64,000 nucleotides of DNA, from assembly GCF_019048845.1 (NCBI RefSeq), contig NZ_CP077426.1, positions 2,713,501-2,777,500 on the forward strand. Direction: 5' to 3'. Shown here in pieces: positions 53,132 to 64,000 of this stretch; the first letter of the stretch is position 1, and every line of letters starts with the position of its first letter. Source of the stretch: Vibrio mimicus (GTDB lineage Bacteria > Pseudomonadota > Gammaproteobacteria > Enterobacterales > Vibrionaceae). Both the position numbers and the translations under genes were made by a program. The notes beneath the pieces were generated by a model that was not told where the DNA came from, made no database searches, and saw nothing but the letters and a program-made list of their open reading frames with translations.

Positions 53132-53207
53132 GGCCCCTTAGCTCAGTGGTTAGAGCAGGCGACTCATAATCGCTTGGTCCCCAGTTCGAACCTGGGAGGG
53201 GCCACCA
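53132..53207 (+). tRNA. tRNA-Ile2(CAT, lysidine type), island insertion site
   Basis: 76 bases with encoded CCA; anticodon loop CTCATAA. The body (GGCCCCTTAGCTCAGTGG..., anticodon stem GGCGA/TCGCT) matches E. coli ileX, the minor isoleucine tRNA whose CAT is modified by TilS to read AUA, and ileX also lies after rpoD in E. coli. In V. cholerae it is often listed as tRNA-Met and is the VSP-II insertion site. Its 3' end is kept intact by the island. Confidence 0.93.
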
Positions 53208-53317: not shown

Positions 53318-53373
53318 TGATGTACCATCGAATGTACCAACGGCTAAATATCGACTATTTTGGTGGTACATCA
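53318..53373. repeat. Three TGTACCA elements before the integrase gene
   Basis: TGATGTACCA (53318-53327) and its exact reverse complement TGGTACATCA (53364-53373) flank a third copy ATGTACCA (53332-53339). The last element overlaps the integrase start codon. They may be arm-type integrase sites, excisionase sites or an autoregulatory operator. Confidence 0.65.
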
Positions 53374-54614
53374 TGGCAAAAAGAGTAGTCCCTTTAACTA
53401 ACACCCAAGTTAAACAAGCTAAAGAATCCGACAAAGAATACACTCTCTCTGATGGTGATGGCCTTCAATTGCGTGTTAAAACGAATGGCACAAAGTTATG
53501 GATTCTGAAATACACTCATCCAATAACCAAAAAAAGAAACAACATAAGCTTTGGTAGTTTTCCTGATGTCTCTCTTGCCGAGGCAAGGAAAAGACGTTCT
53601 GAAGCAAAAACTCTTTTAGCTCTCAATATCGATCCAAAACAGCATAAAGATGAACAGCTTTTAAAAGAAAGAGCAGAGCTTGAAAATACCTTTGGTAAAT
53701 TTTCTGATAGATGGTTGGCACTCAAGAGAGAGAGCGTAAAACCAGAAACAGCAGATAAAGCTTATCGTGCTCTTGAGAAACATATCCTACCTAAACTTGG
53801 GAATGTCCCCATCCAAGACATCAAACCCAGAACGGTACTCAGTATTCTTGAGCCAGTAAAAGCACAAGGAACTCTAGAAACAGTTAAAAGACTCTGCCGT
53901 ATAATCAACGAGGTTATGCGTCTTGCTGTAGCTTCAGGTGACATTGAAGTAAACTACTTAGCAGACATCACCAAGCTCTTTCCGGCCCCTAAACGCCAGC
54001 ATATGGTAACTATCGAACCAGAAAGACTACCAGAGTTGATGCAAGCTATAGCTGGTGCAAACATTACACTATCTACTCGTTGCTTGCTTGAGTGGCAGCT
54101 ACACACGATGACAAGGCCAATTGAAAGCGCTACAGCACGTTGGCAGGATATCGATTTTGAAAATAAAGTGTGGGTTGTTCCTGAGGAAAGAATGAAGATG
54201 AAGCGTCCCCACACAATCCCTCTCACAGAGCAAACTTTGGCACTTTTAGAAATAATGAAGCCAATCAGTGGTCATAGAGAATTTATTTTCCCAAGTAACA
54301 AAAATCCCAAAAGCCATGTAAATAGTCAGAGCGCTAATATGGCACTAAAAAGAATGGGGTTTGAAGGACAGTTGGTTTCTCATGGGCTAAGAGCATTAGC
54401 AAGTACCACTCTTAACGAGCAAGGATTTAATCCTGACGTTATTGAAGCTGCATTAGCTCATGTTGATAAGAATGAAGTTAGGAAAGCTTATAATCGAGCA
54501 GAGTATCTTGAGCAACGCAGAAAACTCATGTGCTGGTGGAGTGATCATATAACCGCTTCTGCTGAGGGGAATGTATCACTCGCATGTCGAAAAGGGCTTA
54601 AATTGGCAGGGTAA
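53373..54614 (+). CDS. P4-type tyrosine recombinase/integrase
   Basis: 413 residues. An N-terminal DUF4102-like arm domain (about 5-90, TLSDGDGLQLRVKTNGTKLWILKY-like), a core-binding domain (about 100-200) and a catalytic domain with Arg in TMTRPIE, HGLRALAS (His/Arg), LAHVDKNEVRKAYNR with the tyrosine nucleophile. All catalytic residues are visible, so it is probably active. It follows the tRNA by 165 bases, reads away from it, and matches the VSP-II integrase position. Confidence 0.93.
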   Translation: MAKRVVPLTNTQVKQAKESDKEYTLSDGDGLQLRVKTNGTKLWILKYTHPITKKRNNISFGSFPDVSLAEARKRRSEAKTLLALNIDPKQHKDEQLLKERAELENTFGKFSDRWLALKRESVKPETADKAYRALEKHILPKLGNVPIQDIKPRTVLSILEPVKAQGTLETVKRLCRIINEVMRLAVASGDIEVNYLADITKLFPAPKRQHMVTIEPERLPELMQAIAGANITLSTRCLLEWQLHTMTRPIESATARWQDIDFENKVWVVPEERMKMKRPHTIPLTEQTLALLEIMKPISGHREFIFPSNKNPKSHVNSQSANMALKRMGFEGQLVSHGLRALASTTLNEQGFNPDVIEAALAHVDKNEVRKAYNRAEYLEQRRKLMCWWSDHITASAEGNVSLACRKGLKLAG

Positions 54615-54690
54615 CAGCCCATAATTCCACCAAAGGAAATAGACGTAAGATTTAGTGGGAAGAAAAGATATGGAATATTCCATCCAAGAG

Positions 54691-55082
54691 AATGAAAGAA
54701 TAAGAGAGCACCGCATCCCGCTCACAGAGCAGATGCTGGCGCTATTGGAAGTAATGAAACCGATAAGTGGTCATCGCGATTATGTTTTTCCGTCAGATAG
54801 AGTAACAGCCAAACAGCTAACATTGCCCTTAAACGTATGGTCTTTAAAGACCGTTTGGTTTCCTATGATCTAAGAGCTCTGGCTAGCACGACACTAAATG
54901 AAACTAAACTCTTTCATAATGACGTCATTGAACTAGCACTAGCTCACGTGGACAAAAACCAAATTCGAGGTATTTACAACCGGGCTTTATATCTTAATCA
55001 ACGTCGAGAAATGCTACGCTGGTGGAGTAACTATATCGAGGAGGCTTCTAAGGGTAGCTGGTCGGTTTGTGCGGCAAATTAA
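54691..55082 (+). pseudogene. Truncated, frameshifted second integrase (C-terminal part)
   Basis: Translation shows REHRIPLTEQMLALLEVMKPISGH, close to the upstream integrase; the match continues in another frame from about 54800 (SNSQTANIALKRMVFKD, LRALASTTLNE, LAHVDKNQIRGIYNR) to a stop at 55082, so one frameshift near 54795-54805 splits it. The N-terminal two thirds, including the first catalytic Arg, are missing, and box HGLR has become YDLR. It is a dead relic of a second related island or a duplication. Confidence 0.88.
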
Positions 55083-55101
55083 TCAATAACGTTCAAAGCG
55101 C

Positions 55102-55132
55102 ATGAAGCTGTCAGCAATGTTGACAACTTCAT
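55102..55132. terminator. Hairpin between integrase relic and qatD
   Basis: A 12-bp stem with one mismatch (ATGAAGCTGTCA / TGACAACTTCAT), 7-base loop, in the 82-base gap between converging frames. No long T-run, so a weak terminator of the qat operon at best. Confidence 0.45.
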
Positions 55133-55164
55133 TCATATATTCTGGTGGATGCTACCAAGCCTAA

Positions 55165-55890
55165 CTACATCAGAAGTGTTCGAAGATTTATCGCTAGTTG
55201 TGAATGAACTTCTCTTTCTGTCATCCCCCAAAGATCGCACAAATAATTTATAACTACCCTCACATCTGATGGATAACATGACCTTTCACCCAATTTAGCA
55301 AATGGCCCATCAGATTCTAACAGCATCTTATCCTTAGGGATCCACCCAACCACCTTTCTACCTCTAGCGCTTAGGAGCATCGCTGGACCAACTGAAAAAA
55401 AACCACTTAGCTGGACAGCTTTATCAATTTGTTTCTTAGTCCCAAGAAACCAGTGAAAAATAGGCACCCCTGATCCAGGATACATTGCCAAACAATCCAA
55501 TACTTCTTCAACGGCACCTAGACTGTGAATTGTTAGAATTTTATCCTCAAATCGCTGACACAGTTTTAATACCTCAGTAAAAACTTTTGTTTGGATTGCA
55601 AAATATGCTTTGAAACCTCTGGAGCCATCTAAGCCAACCTCTCCAATATAACGAGTCTCAGCGATTAAATTTTCAAATAAAGCTAATTCATTTTCACGCA
55701 AATGTGCAACTTGAGGATGGAAACCTAAAGCAGTCTTAACCCGGGGGATATCCTTAGTTAGATTTTTCGTCCCTTCCCAAGCAGAAGGGACTGTTGTAAC
55801 AGACAAGATATAGAACCCAGTATCTTTGATATCTTTGAGCACCACTTCAAAATCAGGATAGAGATCAACGTGGCAGTGCAAATCCATCAT
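55165..55890 (-). CDS. qatD: QatD, TatD-like metal-dependent nuclease
   Basis: 241 residues (start could be the second Met). The TatD/amidohydrolase metal ligands are all in place: HCHVD at the N-terminus, Glu in YIGEVGLDGS, His in TIHSLG, His in FHWFLG and Asp in LLESDGP. Housekeeping TatD is usually about 260 residues, and this copy is divergent. Its ATG overlaps the qatC stop (ATGA). As the last gene of the four-gene operon it matches QatD, the presumed nuclease of the Qat anti-phage system; its target is not evident. Confidence 0.92.
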   Translation of the reverse strand: MMDLHCHVDLYPDFEVVLKDIKDTGFYILSVTTVPSAWEGTKNLTKDIPRVKTALGFHPQVAHLRENELALFENLIAETRYIGEVGLDGSRGFKAYFAIQTKVFTEVLKLCQRFEDKILTIHSLGAVEEVLDCLAMYPGSGVPIFHWFLGTKKQIDKAVQLSGFFSVGPAMLLSARGRKVVGWIPKDKMLLESDGPFAKLGERSCYPSDVRVVINYLCDLWGMTEREVHSQLAINLRTLLM

Positions 55891-57221
55891 TTAACTTTCC
55901 TGCTCTTTAAGAACTGTTCAACTTCCAGCAAACCTCTCTTTGCAACATCAGCAAGCTGGTCCCTTAGCTGTCTATCCTGAGGTAACGATCCACTCTGCCG
56001 GATCCAAGCTTTGAAATCTTCAGTCTTGCGGTACTTATTAATTGCCATCGAAACAGCAAGCAAGTCATCTCGCTCACCTTTGTATTTTTTTACAATACCT
56101 AGATTCTCAGCATCATAGGGGGCATCTTTGGTAAATCCGGCTTTGAACACGGCCGCTCTTCTTATTAAACATGGCACACATCTACCACATTGGATATGTT
56201 TTCTATGCCAATTACTACATGAAACGCTTAAAACAACAGCTTTCTTAATAGCTACCTTGTCAACACATTCAGAGACCATTTCGCCTTTAGTCTTCATTTG
56301 GTAGGGATTTTCAAGTGAAATATTAAAACCAACTTTGTTTAGTAAAAGTTCCAATCTCGATATATAGAAAGGGTGGGTTGTTCTAGTGCTATGGGAACCT
56401 ATCCGTCTTCGCGTAAGCGGAGGGTTAAGTGAAATATAACCATTTTCAGGAATGACTATCCTAGAGATTGAATCATCATTGTTTGCGGACCTGAGTGCAT
56501 TAACACCTAACACCGCTAACGCAATAAAATTAAAACTTCTCCCTCTCATAGACACATCTGTTTTTCCGCGTCTACTTTTAATTATCTTAGGAGATATATC
56601 AAAAGAAAACTCACTAAATTTCCCTCTTAACAAAGACTTAATATCTTTTTGTTTCTTACCATCACCTTTATAGCTATGACTGATCAACAATGGTTTATCA
56701 ACATTACTGCCATTAATCATATCGATAGCACCAACCGCACTATCTAAACCACCAGAAAAAAGACTGACACAATTTAAGCCGACAAGAGATTTAGCTTTGT
56801 CTTTGGCCTTTTTGCTCGTTTTAGGTTGAGGTAATTCTAACTGTGTTGTTTCAAAGTTTAATTTCCAGCTATCCCCTGTAAGATAACCAAGCACTGAAGC
56901 TAACTCTTCAGCGACACCCTGCCACAATTTTTTATCATATACAGGTATAAATAGCTCTAATTGCCGCGACCACGCATCTGGTGCATCTTTTCTCAAAACA
57001 AACGTCTCAGCAGATGTGACAGCTGTGGCAATTGTTAGCAAGTCCAACGACTTAGAATCGATGTTAACGCCTAAATCTCGAATTTTGTTTATTAGACTTC
57101 TAGATGCCAGACTTGATTTATCAGGATCATATGGATGGGTTCCATATATCTGAACAGGATAACAGTCTATCGTATGATCAGGTAAATGCTCAGGATTACT
57201 ATCAAAATAACATTGTTGCAT
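55887..57221 (-). CDS. qatC: QatC, QueC-like ATP-dependent enzyme
   Basis: Start chosen at 57221: the ATG shares a base with the qatB stop (TAATG) and has GGGAG eight bases ahead, inside qatB; a start at 57236 lacks this. The 444 residues have an N-terminal domain of about 145 residues not found in QueC, a PP-loop SGGLDS (about 156-161), ENGYISLNPPL near 259 and a zinc cluster Cys335, Cys345, Cys348, Cys351 (CGRCVPC). QueC makes preQ0, but here there are no queE/queD partners. Family knowledge says QueC-like proteins in defence operons modify a partner protein; I infer QatB is the partner. Confidence 0.92.
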   Translation of the reverse strand: MQQCYFDSNPEHLPDHTIDCYPVQIYGTHPYDPDKSSLASRSLINKIRDLGVNIDSKSLDLLTIATAVTSAETFVLRKDAPDAWSRQLELFIPVYDKKLWQGVAEELASVLGYLTGDSWKLNFETTQLELPQPKTSKKAKDKAKSLVGLNCVSLFSGGLDSAVGAIDMINGSNVDKPLLISHSYKGDGKKQKDIKSLLRGKFSEFSFDISPKIIKSRRGKTDVSMRGRSFNFIALAVLGVNALRSANNDDSISRIVIPENGYISLNPPLTRRRIGSHSTRTTHPFYISRLELLLNKVGFNISLENPYQMKTKGEMVSECVDKVAIKKAVVLSVSCSNWHRKHIQCGRCVPCLIRRAAVFKAGFTKDAPYDAENLGIVKKYKGERDDLLAVSMAINKYRKTEDFKAWIRQSGSLPQDRQLRDQLADVAKRGLLEVEQFLKSRKVK

Positions 57222-58078
57222 TAATAACTCTCCCATTCTTCAATTGTTTTGGCTATCACATTTATCTGAATCTGAGCGATTGTATCCCTTGTCATAACGG
57301 AATAATTCCCTCCAGTAACATTGTGGAGTTGTGTTTGAGTAACAACTTTTACCAACTCCCGTAGCTCAGTCTCCATCTCAAGTTGTTTTAAATGCGTTTC
57401 AGCATGAAGCCAAGCGTCTCCCATATCATTTAGAACTTCTTGAAAAACTAAATCAGTCAAATAATTGGCTACAATATCACCAACTAAATCAGGTGAGAAC
57501 GCACTCTCATCAAACTCATCTTGGTCCTGTAAAGCCTCTGTTAGGGCATAATCCACCGCAATTCTTATCTGATCTGAATCAGAAGCCTCCGGACATAAAT
57601 GTTCTGATATTCGATCAATCGCTTGATCAACTGACAAACCGGATAGATCAGAGAGATTCAGTATTTTGTCTCCAGCTTTTACTGAGTCTCCACTTACTAA
57701 GCTAAACAAAGCTGAACCAGCAGTTATCCCTCCTGCCAGCTTGCGAGCCATGTTACTACCACCACCTTTGGAGCTAGTTGAATACTTCTTCAGTGCTCGG
57801 TGTAACTCTTTTTCACCTCCTCCTGATTTGGCATAATCACCAAATGCTCTTCTTGCTCCCGAAAAACGAGAACTAGGTAATGTTGGAGCTTTAGGGCCAG
57901 GAATAAGCTCCTGAATAGAACCATTATCTATTTCATGTGAATCATTTGGTTGATTACCATCAGACTCCTCCCCATCACTATTCCCAGGAATGATCTCCAA
58001 TGGTTCACTATGTTCCGCCCATGGTGGAATAAGCGGGCTACTATTATTTGGACCAGAACTAGATGCCGATGTACCCAT
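57221..58078 (-). CDS. qatB: QatB, Qat defence protein of unknown biochemical role
   Basis: 285 residues. The N-terminus MGTSASSSGPNN then PLIPPWAEH is the hallmark of this family; after Met removal it exposes Gly. A low-complexity acidic and Pro-rich stretch (about 22-70) leads to a folded part from about residue 70 (SGARRAFGDYAKSGG) with a Gly/Ala segment (about 108-125) and an acidic helical C-terminus. No enzyme motif is visible. It is 3 bases after qatA and its stop is joined to the qatC start. Confidence 0.9.
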   Translation of the reverse strand: MGTSASSSGPNNSSPLIPPWAEHSEPLEIIPGNSDGEESDGNQPNDSHEIDNGSIQELIPGPKAPTLPSSRFSGARRAFGDYAKSGGGEKELHRALKKYSTSSKGGGSNMARKLAGGITAGSALFSLVSGDSVKAGDKILNLSDLSGLSVDQAIDRISEHLCPEASDSDQIRIAVDYALTEALQDQDEFDESAFSPDLVGDIVANYLTDLVFQEVLNDMGDAWLHAETHLKQLEMETELRELVKVVTQTQLHNVTGGNYSVMTRDTIAQIQINVIAKTIEEWESY

Positions 58079-58081
58079 ATC

Positions 58082-59842
58082 TTATTTACTCTCCATACTT
58101 TTTATTAGCGATGTTATCCATCGTTGTTTCGGCAATGAGATTAAAAACTCCTTAAACAGTGCCTTACATTTCTCATCATGATCAGCGAGCAATACTCCTC
58201 CCATTACACCGCTAGGCATCTTGGTATAATCTTCAATGTGCCCTAAGTTTTCAATCAACCCCTCCATTACAGCCATGTATTCTTCTTTCGGAGTCTCATT
58301 GATTAATCTTGTATTAGCTTTACTTGTTCGATTCGCTTGCTTTATTAAAGCGATTAGCAGATTCTGTGCAGCAGCAGATATAACGGTGTTAATTTGGCCA
58401 AGTGGTATACTTTCTCTACTCAAGTAAGCTGCTGGTAGGAGGTTCTTGTCTGAAAATGAAGGAGGAAGTCTAGCCCAAGCCATAATAAAATCCTTTTCGC
58501 TGAGCCATTCATCAGGCCAATCAAATGAGCTATCACCTTCCTCTAACTTCAATAGTAAGTCGGGCTTTCCGTCTTCGGTTTCTATTAGCTGATATAGGTA
58601 TCGTGCTGCATTAGTTCCGACACAACGTTCAAAAATAACTAACTTAGTTAACGTTGCTTCATCAAGTAGCATTCCCCTCCTTGAAGCTATTTTCTTCCTC
58701 ATTTTTATCTGATTCAATAAGCGCTTAACAATTCTAGGGTTACCATTGATGTTTGGCGAAGTCGCCAATATTGGCGCTAGCTTTTCTGCCGTTTTCAAGA
58801 CGAGAACCGCTTTTTCTTTCTCATTAAAATCCATTCCATTGAAGAGCTCATCTATCGTTCTCTGCTCGCCTTTCCATGCCTCACGCAGATCCTTTTCAAG
58901 TCTCGATCTCAATTGGTTTAAAACAACATCTTCCAAAGCCAAATCTTGAGCCATTAGCATCAACACGTATGCTCGAATCTCTAATTGACCAGGTTTAGGA
59001 ACGTGAATTGGTACTTGAATCAGCTTATCCAGATAATCGGTTTGATGCCTTTTACTAGAACCTTTATGGTATTCCTGCACAGCTGTTCGGATCATATCTA
59101 CATCTGCAGCAACAACAAAAGCAGTATTAGGCAAAAAGAGAAACAACCGTATAGCCTCTAACGTAGATATCGCATTTACGGGAGAGCATCGATCTAAGTT
59201 GTCTACATAGACAATCAAAGGAGAATCCAGCGCTTCCAACAATGACGCATACTCATCTCTAAACGCCATAATCTCTTCTGGTGGAGAAAGTTTTTTTTCC
59301 GCCATTAGTAGATTTTGACTATCTCTCACTAGCTTTTGCCCGGCGGCAATAGCCCCTTGGGTATCACTGTCTTCATTAATACCATCCTCATCAGTTGCAT
59401 CCCTAGCAAAACCGATTAACTTTGATATTGCACCTCCGGTAGGAATACCAAATGCAGTTGCTCCGATATCCATTGCCATACCTAAGGCTCTAATTTTATC
59501 GACTCTCTTATAAACCTTATTAGCTCTAGATATAACCGTTTGATTTCCTCTAGCTTCAGCCACGCTAATTAATTCTCTAGCGATAGCTTCTAGTAGAGCA
59601 GCTTTTGCATCGTCGTAACCTTGAAACAGCCATGCATCAAAATGAATTTGAATATGACCAGAATTCTCCGCAGCTATGCGATCTTTAGTTAGCTCTAGAA
59701 CTGAGGACTTTCCTGCACCCCAGTCTCCAAATACACCTATGCTTAGAGGTAAGAGATCTTCTTCGACAATTAAGTCTCTAATAGACTCAGACAATTCACT
59801 AAAATTGAGAAAGTCAATACTCGACTCTTTATCAGACCACAC
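58082..59842 (-). CDS. qatA: QatA, KAP-type P-loop ATPase
   Basis: Start set at GTG 59842 (MWSDKESS), with AAGG nine bases upstream; a TTG three codons earlier directly abuts that site. The 586 residues have Walker A GDWGAGKSS (about 39-47), FDAWLF (70), a weakly hydrophobic segment (about 120-147), Walker B LIVYVDNLDRC (about 209-219) and sensor-like NPRIVKRLLNQI near 385. This is the KAP NTPase pattern. First gene of qatABCD; the ATPase is likely the sensor or motor. Confidence 0.92.
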   Translation of the reverse strand: MWSDKESSIDFLNFSELSESIRDLIVEEDLLPLSIGVFGDWGAGKSSVLELTKDRIAAENSGHIQIHFDAWLFQGYDDAKAALLEAIARELISVAEARGNQTVISRANKVYKRVDKIRALGMAMDIGATAFGIPTGGAISKLIGFARDATDEDGINEDSDTQGAIAAGQKLVRDSQNLLMAEKKLSPPEEIMAFRDEYASLLEALDSPLIVYVDNLDRCSPVNAISTLEAIRLFLFLPNTAFVVAADVDMIRTAVQEYHKGSSKRHQTDYLDKLIQVPIHVPKPGQLEIRAYVLMLMAQDLALEDVVLNQLRSRLEKDLREAWKGEQRTIDELFNGMDFNEKEKAVLVLKTAEKLAPILATSPNINGNPRIVKRLLNQIKMRKKIASRRGMLLDEATLTKLVIFERCVGTNAARYLYQLIETEDGKPDLLLKLEEGDSSFDWPDEWLSEKDFIMAWARLPPSFSDKNLLPAAYLSRESIPLGQINTVISAAAQNLLIALIKQANRTSKANTRLINETPKEEYMAVMEGLIENLGHIEDYTKMPSGVMGGVLLADHDEKCKALFKEFLISLPKQRWITSLIKSMESK

Positions 59843-60128
59843 TCTACACAACCTTATTCGATTACCTTAATTAGAGGACTAATCTAGCAAAAACATATGG
59901 TTATTTGTTGTGATAGCAACTACATATTCATCGACTCCCAGTGAAACCAATGATGTAAGAAAGATCAAAAAAGCAACCTAAGCACATGATTTATAGTGAT
60001 TTGATTATTATCTCTCTTTATTTTTCACTTTAAAATTATGATTAGGAAACTAAAGCCCTAAATCCAAAAATCTTCAGGCATATGTCATCAATGTGAAACC
60101 CCATCATTGATTCCGGCAGGAGCTTGAA
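59843..60128. promoter_or_regulatory. Divergent AT-rich region between qatA and radC
   Basis: 286 bases, very AT-rich, between the divergent qat operon and the RadC module. Promoters for both must be here, but no -35/-10 pair is strong enough to name. The radC ribosome site CAGGAGC is at about 60117-60123. No small gene is evident. Confidence 0.55.
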
Positions 60129-60602
60129 ATGAATCCCAAAACTTCCGATTACCAAAAGCAGCAACGCTATCAGGAAAATGAAATCCTAGAGCATGCGGCT
60201 GAGATACTGGCTACACGCTACGTGCGTGGTGATGCCCTCACCAACCCTGATGCCACCAAAGAGTATGTGCGCTGTAAGCTAGGCAGCTATGAGCGTGAAG
60301 TGTTTGCCTTATTGCTACTGGATAACCAAAACCGACTGATTGAATTTAAAGAACTGTTTCAAGGAACGGTGGACGCCGCCAGCGTCTACCCGCGAGAAGT
60401 GGTGAAAGCAGTGTTAGAAGTGAATGCCGCAGCGGTGATATTTGCCCATAACCACCCATCCGGTGATTCAACGCCGTCTCAAGCCGATAGACGCATAACC
60501 GAAAGACTCAAGGACGCTTTAGCGCTGGTGGACGTTCGCGTACTTGACCATATCGTGACAGGTGATACCTGCACCTCGTTTGCTGAAAGGGGGTGGTTAT
60601 GA
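60129..60602 (+). CDS. RadC family JAB/MPN domain protein
   Basis: 157 residues, mostly the JAB1/MPN domain. The metalloprotease-like motif [14 protein letters not shown] and a preceding Glu (LIEFKELF) are intact; the helix-hairpin-helix region of chromosomal RadC (about 220 residues) is missing. Short RadC proteins are common on islands and plasmids; the biochemical role is unknown, and a role in DNA repair has been withdrawn. It overlaps the next gene by 10 bases. A RadC gene lies in VSP-II at a similar place. Confidence 0.92.
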
Positions 60603-61036
60603 TTGAGCAACATTACGGTGAGCTTTCTATTGATGACGCTTTACATACGTCACTGGAAGCCCTTTTGGACCGATACACTCTCCCAGAGAACGCTGAACGA
60701 CTCGTGCTCAACTGCCGCCAAATGAGTTACTACCGACATCGACAAGGTTTGCATCCTATAGAGGTACAGTTTAAACGAGAGTCAGCCTCAAGCCCTTGGC
60801 TGGTGGTGTTCTTTGCCAGCTTCTCTTATCCCGATGACCACAGCACAACTGTTGAGCCTGAATTGTACTTTCACCTTGCTAATCGCTGGTGCTATCAACC
60901 TGATGTGGGGAGCACGGATTTATCCCACCCAGAGGTACAAGAGCTACTCTCGGTATGGATGAAAGCCTTTGCTCGTCACCTTTCCAGAAACCTCTTTGAT
61001 GACGTGCAACTGACGATGGTCGCTACGTTCAACTAA
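60593..61036 (+). CDS. DUF2787-like protein, first copy
   Basis: 147 residues of unknown function. The core [21 protein letters not shown] and the pattern of aromatic residues are shared with the next gene, so the two are paralogues; I recognise the DUF2787 family found mainly in Vibrio near radC. The start could be the ATG at 60599 (MIEQHYGEL) rather than 60593. It overlaps radC by 10 bases, so is translationally coupled. No signal peptide or membrane segment. Confidence 0.8.
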
Positions 61037-61085
61037 ATCCACTCTTTCTTTTCTTATTTGAATCCTTAAACAAGGAGGACTCACT

Positions 61086-61529
61086 ATGTCCAAATTAAAC
61101 TTCACAGCATCATTACTACCTGTATCAAAGAAACTGCATAAGCTGTTAAGTGAGCAACTTACCGCTCATTTGCTGAGTAATGAAGCACTGACCACCAGCC
61201 GCTATCTGGTGTTTAACTTTCGTGATAAAAGTTACAGCGCGGATGAAGGCGGCTTCCATCCGGTTGAGATGGCAATTTGCCAAACCTCAACAGGAGAATG
61301 GAGCATTGAGTACATCACCGACTTTGCTTACATGGGGAACTACTATCCAGAGCTAGAGCGCAACTTGGATTTTGATTTTCGGGTTGGACAGTTCTTTGTT
61401 GCTTATCGTGGTTGGCTACCAATGCAAGGTAGCTGTGATGCCAAAGAGCTGTATCGACTATGGGAGAATAACTTTCTGACCTATGTCGATATGGACGCTT
61501 ACGATGAGATAGCCGTCACTCCGCAATAA
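61086..61529 (+). CDS. DUF2787-like protein, second copy
   Basis: 147 residues, same length as the neighbour; shared core LVFNFRDKSYSADEGGFHPVE followed by a beta-rich part. A strong AAGGAGG precedes the ATG. It is acidic and has no membrane segment. Function unknown; the tandem pair suggests a heteromer or duplication. Confidence 0.82.
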   Translation: MSKLNFTASLLPVSKKLHKLLSEQLTAHLLSNEALTTSRYLVFNFRDKSYSADEGGFHPVEMAICQTSTGEWSIEYITDFAYMGNYYPELERNLDFDFRVGQFFVAYRGWLPMQGSCDAKELYRLWENNFLTYVDMDAYDEIAVTPQ

Positions 61530-61532
61530 CTC

Positions 61533-61709
61533 ATGACTTCCCTTCTTCTACAAATCATCACACTTGTCACTGCCCTCATCACGTTGTTTTCACTGTCTCC
61601 GTTCTTCGGTGCCATCGGAGCCCTATCTACTTTAGGGTTTCTGGTGGTGCTGTTGATTGGGTTATTGGCAACCGTTGCAGAGCTCAGTGATAAGCATAAG
61701 CCTCGTTAA
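61533..61709 (+). CDS. Small hydrophobic membrane protein, 58 residues
   Basis: ATG at 61533, four bases after the previous stop, so coupled translation is likely. The protein begins MTSLLLQIIT and has two hydrophobic stretches (about 4-22 and 26-48) around a short SPFFGAIG turn, ending with a charged tail (ELSDKHKPR). Unknown function; could be a two-helix membrane peptide or toxin-like. No Shine-Dalgarno of its own is clear. Confidence 0.65.
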   Translation: MTSLLLQIITLVTALITLFSLSPFFGAIGALSTLGFLVVLLIGLLATVAELSDKHKPR

Positions 61710-61761
61710 TGTTAATCGGCTCACGCTTTGGTGATGCCGATTGATGCTGTTTTCACCGTTG

Positions 61762-61807
61762 GACATTATGTGTCTGACCCACCTCTATTCTCCCGACATT
61801 AAATGTC
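61762..61807. promoter_or_regulatory. Paired operator-like palindromes before the WYL regulator
   Basis: GACATTATGTGTC (61762-61774) and the perfect palindrome GACATTAAATGTC (61795-61807) match at 10 of 13 bases and start 33 bases apart, about three helical turns. They lie 41 bases before the regulator gene, fitting autoregulation by a dimeric HTH protein. Confidence 0.7.
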
Positions 61808-61847
61808 CGACTCCAGTGTGGAGCTTTGATGTATTGAGAGCGTAGTC

Positions 61848-62582
61848 ATGAGCAATAAAACCAGCATTGAAGGGTTATCCGCTTTGCTGCACACGCTGAT
61901 GCTTATTCCTCAACATCGATGGATCACCGTTAGGGAGTTGCAGCAACAGTTAGCTCTACTCGATATCCACCGCACCACGCGCAGCATTAAACGCTACCTC
62001 GATGACATCATTGTGGACGTGTTTAACGTAGAGTGTGATTCGATGAGCATGCCCCATGTTTATCGCAAAACCTCAGAGCAATTACTGAAGCTCAACAAGC
62101 AGGAAATGCTCTATTGGCAACTGACCAACAAGTACTTACTGCCGCTGGTTCCTGATGCACTGAATTATGGGCAAGGGTCCTCCTCGGAGAGAGACAAACC
62201 CTTTCCCCACAAGGGTTCAGCACATTCAAAAGAGCAAGCATGGTTAGCCAAAGTACATGTGGCTTTGCCCACCATTCGCGAGTGGAGTGACGAGCAACGG
62301 CAAGTATTGAATGCGGTACACACGGCATTACTGCACAACCGTATGCTCAAGATATCGAGCCAAGTATTGCAGCAAGAGAAGGCGCTCATTGAGCCACTGG
62401 GACTCTCGGTTCAGTGTGACGCGCTCTTGCTGCTCTTTCGTTTAACCGGTCAAAACAAGATACGCACCCTAGCCTTGCCTTTGATTGATGAGGCTAGTGT
62501 ATCGACGTTTTCTTTTACCTATCCGACTGATTTCAATCTTGAGCGGTTCATGCGTGAACACGATGGAATCAGTACACCCTGA
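61848..62582 (+). CDS. WYL-domain transcriptional regulator (HTH plus WYL)
   Basis: 244 residues. An N-terminal winged helix (about 5-65, HRWITVRELQQQLAL, RTTRSIKRYLDDI) resembles YafY/DeoR-type regulators; the C-terminal half has the WYL layout (ALIEPLGLSVQCDALLLLFRL, RTLALPLIDEASVSTF, PTDFNLERFM). WYL regulators often sense nucleic acids or nucleotides and control phage defence islands, for example BrxR and CapW. Palindromes upstream suggest self-control. It may repress this module or the qat operon. Confidence 0.82.
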   Translation: MSNKTSIEGLSALLHTLMLIPQHRWITVRELQQQLALLDIHRTTRSIKRYLDDIIVDVFNVECDSMSMPHVYRKTSEQLLKLNKQEMLYWQLTNKYLLPLVPDALNYGQGSSSERDKPFPHKGSAHSKEQAWLAKVHVALPTIREWSDEQRQVLNAVHTALLHNRMLKISSQVLQQEKALIEPLGLSVQCDALLLLFRLTGQNKIRTLALPLIDEASVSTFSFTYPTDFNLERFMREHDGISTP

Positions 62583-62612
62583 ATTTCCCTCACCGATAAG
62601 GAGAGCACCGTT

Positions 62613-62981
62613 ATGACATTAACCAACACCCTACTCCGATACGCCGCTATGACCATCCTGTTTATCGGGCTCACCGCTTGTGGCGACCAAAAAGAAACTC
62701 AAGCAGCAACGGCAGATATTGAAGTGTCGATATCAGCTAACCCTCACTGGGGAACATTGGTCTTTGACCTACAAGCTATCACCAACAACACCGTAATACA
62801 CGATGTAGTGATTAACCGTGGCAACTGCCGATTACCCGCAGGAACAGCCTCAGAGCTATCAAGAAACGTTTCATTGAAGTTCGGCCAAACCTATACCGGA
62901 TATAGCAACAACTGCACAGTAGACAGCGTGAAAGAAATCGAAGTCACCTCCAGTGCTGGCACCTTTGTCTACACCTTCTAA
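62613..62981 (+). CDS. Small predicted lipoprotein
   Basis: 122 residues with a lipoprotein signal peptide and lipobox LTAC (Cys near residue 23). The mature part is beta-rich (VFDLQAITNNTVIHDVVINRGNC) with two further Cys that could form a disulfide. No known family is recognised. The gene follows the regulator by 30 bases with AAGGAGAG before the ATG, suggesting co-transcription. Confidence 0.75.
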   Translation: MTLTNTLLRYAAMTILFIGLTACGDQKETQAATADIEVSISANPHWGTLVFDLQAITNNTVIHDVVINRGNCRLPAGTASELSRNVSLKFGQTYTGYSNNCTVDSVKEIEVTSSAGTFVYTF

Positions 62982-63256: not shown

Positions 63257-63282
63257 TACCACCAGCAACAGTAAAAAATGAC

Positions 63283-63308
63283 AATGGGGAGCAATTACGC
63301 TCCCCATT
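63283..63308 (+). terminator. Terminator closing the RadC-WYL module
   Basis: AATGGGGAGC / GCTCCCCATT with a six-base loop, followed by CTTTTTTT. Strong intrinsic terminator after the secreted protein gene. The region 63309-63494 has no gene that I can support. Confidence 0.92.
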
Positions 63309-63494
63309 CTTTTTTTGCTTCTATACGCAAACCGTACAATCAATAAGTTGGCCTTCTCAACTCATTTTGGACATTTATGAGTTAGAGTTAACACTCAATA
63401 AAACCATAACATTCACAAAAACTGACTACTTATTCAAAGGTGAAGTGGTTAAGTTTTATTGACCACTAACTTAGAATCTAGCCAATATCTCTGC

Positions 63495-64000
63495 TCACCC
63501 GTTTGCCCCTGCTCTAGAATCTTTCTTCAATACTTCTATCATTTTCTGTTCATGTTCAAGGATCTGCTGTACTCCCCATTCCCCACTGTGATTAAGGTGC
63601 TGGATCATTTCGTACAGTTTCAATGTATCTATATTTTTATCGTTGATGGCAGATTTAAAGTGATCACGCTTTGCCGAAGGTAGTAGATTGCTTAACTTCG
63701 AGTTTTTACTATGGCTGATAAGGCATAAGTTACCAAAACGATGCAGCTCGCTATTATTCAGCTTTTTATGGCCATCTAATGGGTGTTGTGGGTAAAAGTG
63801 CTCGACTGAACTGCGGAAGGTAAACTCAAACTGGTTTATAACAGCATCGGTACTGCTTTCTATACCATTGCACCAAAGCAGGTAATCTAGGTAGTTGAAT
63901 ACCAAGTTATTCTCAATCGCGCCATACCTTAGTAAATCCATCACCGAACCATCATAATTATCCAAGGATCGATAACCCGTCCCCTGGTAAATCATGGCGA
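63495..64000 (-). CDS. DUF1524/HNH-type nuclease C-terminal part (GmrSD-like), runs off the window
   Basis: The frame stays open to the edge (Ala codon before the Met at 63995), so this is the C-terminal 167 or so residues of a longer protein. The HNH-like pattern of DUF1524 is visible: VEHFYPQHP, then [18 protein letters not shown] and SAKRDHF. DUF262-DUF1524 proteins such as GmrSD and SspE-like nucleases cut modified or foreign DNA, so a restriction role is plausible. The N-terminal domain is not in the window. Confidence 0.7.

Follow-up and report, generated by a model that had tools for sequence, protein, structure and literature searches.

A Qat operon in the tRNA-Ile2 island of Vibrio mimicus

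We analysed a stretch of 64,000 nucleotides from Vibrio mimicus (assembly GCF_019048845.1, contig NZ_CP077426.1, positions 2,713,501 to 2,777,500 of the forward strand; hereafter the window), which contains four qat-like genes within a genomic island resembling VSP-II of pandemic Vibrio cholerae. From left to right, the locus consists of dnaG, rpoD, a tRNA gene with anticodon CAU, an integrase gene, an integrase scar, qatDCBA, radC, a DUF2787 gene, a gene of the same size, a gene for a 244-aa protein, and a lipoprotein-like gene. The island continues with a GmrSD-like pair, which runs past the window end, then TerY, PP2C, an insertion with the larger piece of an STK_OB gene, LysM and RNase H genes, a YagK/YfjJ-domain gene, two neighbours of similar size, a gene for a 283-aa protein, and a pilin-like gene. 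We consider it very probable that the qat genes make up a full and probably functional QatABCD anti-phage operon, that it is the slot 1 cargo of a VSP-II-like island at tRNA-Ile2(CAU) beside rpoD, and that it acts by the mechanism proposed below.

All four open reading frames (ORFs) are complete, uninterrupted, and on the minus strand, and the gene set described by an earlier sequence-only reading (a KAP ATPase, an MGTS-starting protein, a QueC-like enzyme, and a TatD-like protein) is present and intact. The tight coupling that it reported, which might serve to control stoichiometry, also holds: 3 bases separate qatA from qatB, qatC and qatD share ATGA, and qatB and qatC meet at TAATG provided that qatC begins at its sixth codon (57221), a position equivalent to that at which RefSeq starts qatC of the nearest relative. 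That reading placed the operon at 55165 to 59851; the four-gene stretch is real, whereas its upper end is likely 59842. The ORF list starts qatA at TTG 59851 (58082-59851, 589 aa), but GTG 59842 is the likely start because, among the seven other Vibrio operons whose qatA is not interrupted, six have the start of QatA no more than two codons from WSD(K/Q)ES and the seventh has it at LWPDNES.

Table 1. Features of the locus, in window coordinates
Feature	Position	Strand	Description	Basis
tRNA, anticodon CAU (tRNA-Ile2)	53132..53207	+	Island insertion site	ARAGORN; E. coli matches; empty-site homology ends at last base
Integrase	53373..54614	+	P4-like tyrosine integrase, intact, 413 aa	NF007246 520 bits; Pfam Phage_integrase
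Cargo slot 1	54615..60056		Integrase stop to ~73 bp before radC	Blocks of DNA homology with several other islands stop and restart at its edges
Integrase scar	54650..55088	+	Mosaic 3' ends of other, related integrases; has stops, no working gene	NF007246 match of 81-aa ORF; DNA identity
qatD	55165..55890	-	TatD-family nuclease-like, 241 aa	PADLOC QatD 280 bits; NCBIfam QatD 308 bits (cut-off 230)
qatC	55887..57236	-	QueC-like PP-loop enzyme, 449 aa as listed; 444 aa from TAATG (57221)	PADLOC QatC 393 bits; NCBIfam QatC 411 bits (cut-off 280)
qatB	57221..58078	-	MGTS-starting partner of QatC, 285 aa	PADLOC QatB 195 bits; NCBIfam QatB 71 bits (cut-off 100)
qatA	58082..59842	-	KAP P-loop ATPase, 586 aa from GTG	PADLOC QatA 669 bits; Pfam KAP_NTPase 166 bits; NCBIfam QatA 377 bits (cut-off 600)
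radC-like gene	60129..60602	+	First backbone gene past slot 1	Pfam RadC 152 bits; 94-98% identical in G003, G023, G109
Rest of backbone block	60593..62981	+	DUF2787 protein, second same-size protein, 244-aa protein, short lipoprotein-like protein	Order kept in G003, G023
GmrSD-like pair, first gene	63495..64000, continues past window	-	Cargo slot 2

Family assignment and Qat subtype

PADLOC profile searches returned QatA, QatB, QatC, and QatD as the best matches of the four proteins, including the ATPase and the MGTS protein, on whose best hits the sequence-only reading had made its Qat assignment depend; the assignment stands. Chance similarity is ruled out by PADLOC scores in the hundreds of bits. 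Plain QueC and TatD housekeeping genes are also ruled out as an explanation, as general TatD models fall below their own cut-offs for QatD and the genome encodes a QueC of its own at another locus. Against the NCBIfam models, QatC and QatD exceed the cut-offs while QatA (an equivalog model) and QatB fall short, and by these profile scores the operon is therefore a diverged Qat subtype. In the RefSeq entry for the nearest relative, only qatC and qatD bear these names; the QatB counterpart is given as "hypothetical protein" and QatA as "P-loop NTPase fold protein." The operon thus adds a diverged subtype whose QatA and QatB lie below the NCBI naming cut-offs.

Among solved structures, residues 48-445 of QatC, a member of the QueC superfamily by Pfam, align with crystallised QatC 9zee and 9vlk (E of 7.8e-61 and 6.6e-60), and QatB matches crystallised QatB weakly (E of 8e-8 and 1.2e-6). 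TatD-like relatives of QatD include 9xsn and 3gg7, and no solved structure related to QatA was found (best E of 0.11). The operon shares with QatABCD of Escherichia coli and Pseudomonas aeruginosa (structures 9zee/9zef and 9vlk/9vll) the four families, the MGTS tail, SGGxDS, Thr-x-Thr, the zinc cysteines, a TatD-like QatD, and a KAP QatA; the shortfall of QatA and QatB against NCBIfam sets it apart from these references.

Its nearest relative is the Qat operon of plasmid p251 of Vibrio tubiashii ATCC 19109, probably the same as that of survey genome G218, with 77% DNA identity over 55262-59929 and 77-84% identity of the proteins (84% for QatC). On plasmid p251, Hhe lies upstream of qatA at a distance of three genes, and a DRT1a-like gene adjoins qatD; the operon described here sits in a chromosomal tRNA island instead.

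Conserved residues and a proposed mechanism

Nine aligned Vibrio QatC sequences are identical at the SGGxDS residues, at two threonines, at R228 and F232, and at four cysteines. Mapped on the alignment to crystallised QatC, R228 and F232 correspond to the ATP-site Arg and Phe and the four cysteines to the zinc ligands. The threonine pair stands in place of the Tyr/Asp pair of QueC and maps onto the threonines reported as invariant and essential (PMC13279940); the full HSTRTTHP motif is found in seven of the nine sequences. The alignment thereby gives the QatC of this operon SGGxDS, Thr-x-Thr, and all four zinc cysteines. All nine aligned Vibrio QatB sequences share M1, G2, T3, S4, P18, and W20, and the copy at locus L057 has a GTG start codon. 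Among the seven QatB sequences of one subtype, pairwise identity is 87% over residues 1-22, 40% over the linker (23-66), and 63% over the core, and such high conservation of the tail is the pattern expected if it docks in an active site. The motifs for all metal ligands, which had been claimed for QatD, are present in the sequence.

The Qat system and its requirement for MGTS and QatC are already published. In P. aeruginosa, QatB and QatC form a 1:1 complex that suffices against lambda; defence requires Gly2 and part of the QatB tail, as well as the ATP site and Thr278/Thr280 of QatC; QatA binds DNA, and deletion of QatA and QatD alters the phage range (PMC13279940). In bacteria other than V. 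mimicus, QatBC alone has been reported to protect against some phages, with QatA and QatD widening the range. By analogy, the initiator Met of QatB would be removed in V. mimicus, and the MGTS tail would enter the QatC ATP site. QatC would then attach a small group, deazaguanine-like or other, to Gly2, arming QatB, and the ATPase QatA and the TatD-like nuclease QatD might adjust range or output. The host genome has its own QueC and QueE genes, so that 7-carboxy-7-deazaguanine (CDG) should be available. A similar logic is known from type IV CBASS, in which a QueC-like enzyme, Cap9, acts on the N-terminal glycine motif of its partner CD-NTase (MGGS there, MGTS here; PMC13279940), but the present operon has no CD-NTase, and its QatC differs in carrying additional domains and a Thr-x-Thr where the base-reading Tyr/Asp would be.

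The conserved catalytic residues, the MGTS tail of QatB, and low nonsynonymous divergence (dN) together suggest a working operon. Compared with G218, dN is 0.089, 0.114, and 0.106 for qatA, qatB, and qatC, the three genes compared, and synonymous divergence (dS) is 2.8, 1.3, and 2.7; dS is saturated, and the comparison of dN with dS is therefore only qualitative. Weighing against this picture are the NCBIfam shortfalls of QatA and QatB, a scan that found 12 promoter-like sites where 13.4 were expected, hence no excess, and the published structural study, in which QatC chemistry was not reconstituted and the CDG-reading residues are replaced (PMC13279940). The same scan found 6 terminator-like sites (3.6 expected). 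The absence of a promoter signal above chance would fit homologues of Qat that are silent or decaying and kept by hitch-hiking on the island, as would signs of decay in other parts of the island, namely the integrase scar and a slot 2 kinase gene that an insertion has apparently split, and a right island end without a tRNA-end repeat. We regard such silent cargo as unlikely, given four intact ORFs with catalytic motifs and a dN far below dS for qatA to qatC.

Still less probable, to the point that we give it little weight, is that plasmids or other mobile DNA, and not phages, are the main target of the cluster, or that QatC makes a free nucleobase instead of modifying QatB. VSP-II does carry DdmABC, an anti-plasmid and anti-phage system (PMC12409362), and QatC belongs to the QueC superfamily. 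On the other side, E. coli QatC could not substitute for QueC (PMC13329287), a QueC gene is already present in the host, and conservation of the QatB tail points to a protein substrate. A complete, probably working anti-phage operon is the reading that we retain.

Insertion site and borders of the island

ARAGORN labels the CAU tRNA as Met(CAT), but the top five E. coli matches listed (88-90% identity) all carry the annotation tRNA-Ile. The tRNA-Ile2 label given by the sequence-only reading is therefore right, although the VSP-II literature speaks of tRNA-Met. The recognition of a VSP-II-type locus was likewise sound: the site downstream of rpoD carries the CAU tRNA and an integrase, followed by radC, DUF2787, RNase H, YagK/YfjJ-domain, and pilin-like genes, and the island stops before a VC0489-like gene. 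We take VC0489 to be the gene at the far end of the island.

The rpoD-tRNA query matched all 227 genomes of our Vibrio survey set, which holds one genome per species and includes V. mimicus itself. Of 12 relatives examined, 5 (G211, G092, G091, G095, and G173) have an island-free site with a VC0489-like gene directly 3' of the tRNA. The four closest empty-site relatives, with 91-95% identity over the rpoD-tRNA DNA, were used to place the junctions: homology to the empty sites stops at 53207, the last base of the tRNA, and resumes at L003:10461, or window coordinate 81361, for an island of ~28.15 kb. A search near the right junction for a second copy of the tRNA end (attR) found none, and the far attachment site may therefore have been lost. 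The 130-150 bp found 3' of the tRNA in the four empty sites are absent from the right junction.

Qat was also said to lie directly after the integrase. The integrase does adjoin the slot, but a scar at ~54650-55088 separates the intact gene from qatD, and the operon is therefore not strictly next to it. One part of the scar has 89% DNA identity to a stretch of G034 (C35) and the other 94% to the end of a G054 integrase.

Cargo slot 1 as a site of exchange

Six of the 226 other Vibrio genomes (G034, G055, G003, G123, G219, and G109) have an integrase that is at least 90% identical along its whole length. By coordinates, it lies directly 3' of the CAU tRNA in five of them and ~17 kb downstream in G034. 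Homology on the left ends at 54602-54623 in five of the six and at 54580 in G219; on the right it resumes at 60056 in G023 and G109, 60057 in G003, and 60061 in G123. The backbone of G003 is nearly the same as that of V. mimicus (RadC 98%, two DUF2787-type proteins 92 and 95%, LysM 95%, and RNase H 97% over the 76 aa covered), with differing cargo in both slots. We scanned slot 1 of four of the six integrase relatives with PADLOC, and three contain clear defence cargo: IetA and IetS in G003, type I restriction-modification with a PrrC-like protein in G123, and type I restriction-modification in G109. The cargo of G219 gave weak PADLOC matches and no named system.

These observations could be explained if the gap between integrase and radC in VSP-II-like islands were a docking site with fixed borders, the integrase stop on the left and a point ~73 bp upstream of radC on the right, through which defence operons, mostly oriented opposite the integrase, are exchanged between Vibrio species. 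Qat, IetAS, type I restriction-modification with or without PrrC, and, from the literature, GrwAB/Shedu would then be interchangeable, and the island would be a shuttle with a standard socket. We judge the chances of this explanation to be evenly balanced. Of nine comparison loci, only four (G003, G023, G109, and G123) have a right-edge block starting at 60056-60061. Homology in G219 and G055 lies only inside radC (inverted in G055), no radC occurs in the 13-kb stretch of G034, and G218 and G074 have no right-edge block. Even among the four, the matching radC of G109 is ~17 kb from the integrase with extra genes between, the radC block of G123 is broken, and the island of G023 is not at the CAU tRNA. 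The cargo of G034 resembles that of G109 by gene sizes alone and starts with a plus-strand gene, and the layout of G055 is different. No repeat joining the two slot edges was found above shuffled controls.

The Qat operon probably reached the slot by exchange at near-fixed borders, leaving the scar of foreign integrase ends beside qatD. A socket for defence-operon turnover in islands related to pandemic VSP-II is located to a few bases, and the integrase end and the region upstream of radC could serve as a simple marker for surveying defence cargo across Vibrio strains.

Positions 60056-60128 before radC, which include TTCAGGCATATGTCATCAATGTGAA, are nearly unchanged across the five Vibrio islands compared. 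They contain a TTCA...TGAA inverted pair and are possibly a regulatory site.

Distribution of Qat

QatC scores above the cut-off in 9 of the 227 Vibrio genomes, V. mimicus included, and only here was it seen near the CAU tRNA. It is on another contig in G039, G047, G089, G218, and G163 and on the same contig at a distance in G023, G081, and G210 (~210 kb in G210 if the contig is circular); G047, G089, and G163 are in many contigs, and there a location on separate contigs is no strict proof of distance. This count rules out Qat as a standing occupant of the CAU tRNA locus. G023 has a Qat operon, 52-60% identical, that adjoins this backbone (RadC 94%) but at another site, which suggests either that distinct Qat alleles arrived separately next to radC or that Qat has diverged faster.

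QatC relatives were found in 142 of 72,556 plasmid records, 11 of them from Vibrio, and in a survey at order level 8 of 394 exceed the cut-off, again counting V. mimicus. Phage records yielded two partial Listeria phage matches (29%), and a search of genome contigs gave four loci, none from Vibrio, although near records may be left out of that search. The diverged Qat operon of G210 (L055:5681-8739) has its qatA split around a 403-aa ORF on the opposite strand, apparently an insertion.

Relation to published VSP-II islands

VSP-II is known to be modular, its tRNA-Met site is cited as a defence hotspot, and VC0511-VC0515 are replaced in Peruvian-outbreak strains (PMC12146696) by DNA carrying GrwAB and Shedu (PMC12409362). 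The V. mimicus island shares with VSP-II of seventh-pandemic and WASA V. cholerae the integrase, radC-like, RNase H, and pilin genes, the insertion at the tRNA called tRNA-Met there, and variable cargo between the integrase and VC0510 (gene numbers partly from PMC8248653 and PMC12409362). A GmrSD-like pair is present here, as in WASA VSP-II (GrwAB), but in a second slot; slot 1, the position of VC0511-VC0515 in VSP-II and of other defence genes in WASA strains, holds Qat, and TerY-P genes are present. DdmABC had no match among the 10 other island proteins scanned, a set that left out three further ORFs, each 110 aa or longer, close to the right end.

The main text of PMC12409362 has no "Qat," a term search of PMC12137116 found none either, and Qat in VSP-II or at this tRNA was not named in the open-licence PMC literature searched. 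The novelty of position that had been claimed thus holds in that we found no printed report of Qat at this site, but it is smaller than claimed because the modularity of VSP-II and other defence cargo in the slot are published (PMC12146696, PMC12409362). The operon belongs, with good support, to an established defence family, and its locus had already been recognised for defence cargo that varies. What is new is modest and lies mainly in the location of Qat, together with the borders of the slot and the variety of cargo that fills it.

Slot 2 and the rest of the island

The GmrSD-like pair of cargo slot 2 (window 63495 onward; L002:12496-16033) combines GmrSD_N/GmrSD_C with GmrSD_N/DUF7834 and is reminiscent of GrwAB of WASA V. 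cholerae. TerY-P defence genes (TerY, PP2C, and STK_OB) follow at L002:16941-19900 and L003:378-1574. An insertion, IS3-like by eye, apparently splits the STK_OB kinase gene, of which the larger piece was scanned. Slot 2 is bracketed by a 55-bp, near-perfect, terminator-like direct repeat (63263-63317 and L003:1847-1901). Beyond it, L003:1947-4899 encodes an 852-aa LysM protein, 95% identical in G003, with a small 133-aa ORF just downstream. Slot 2 of G003 (L078:12596-16040) holds an OloA and OloB pair by PADLOC.

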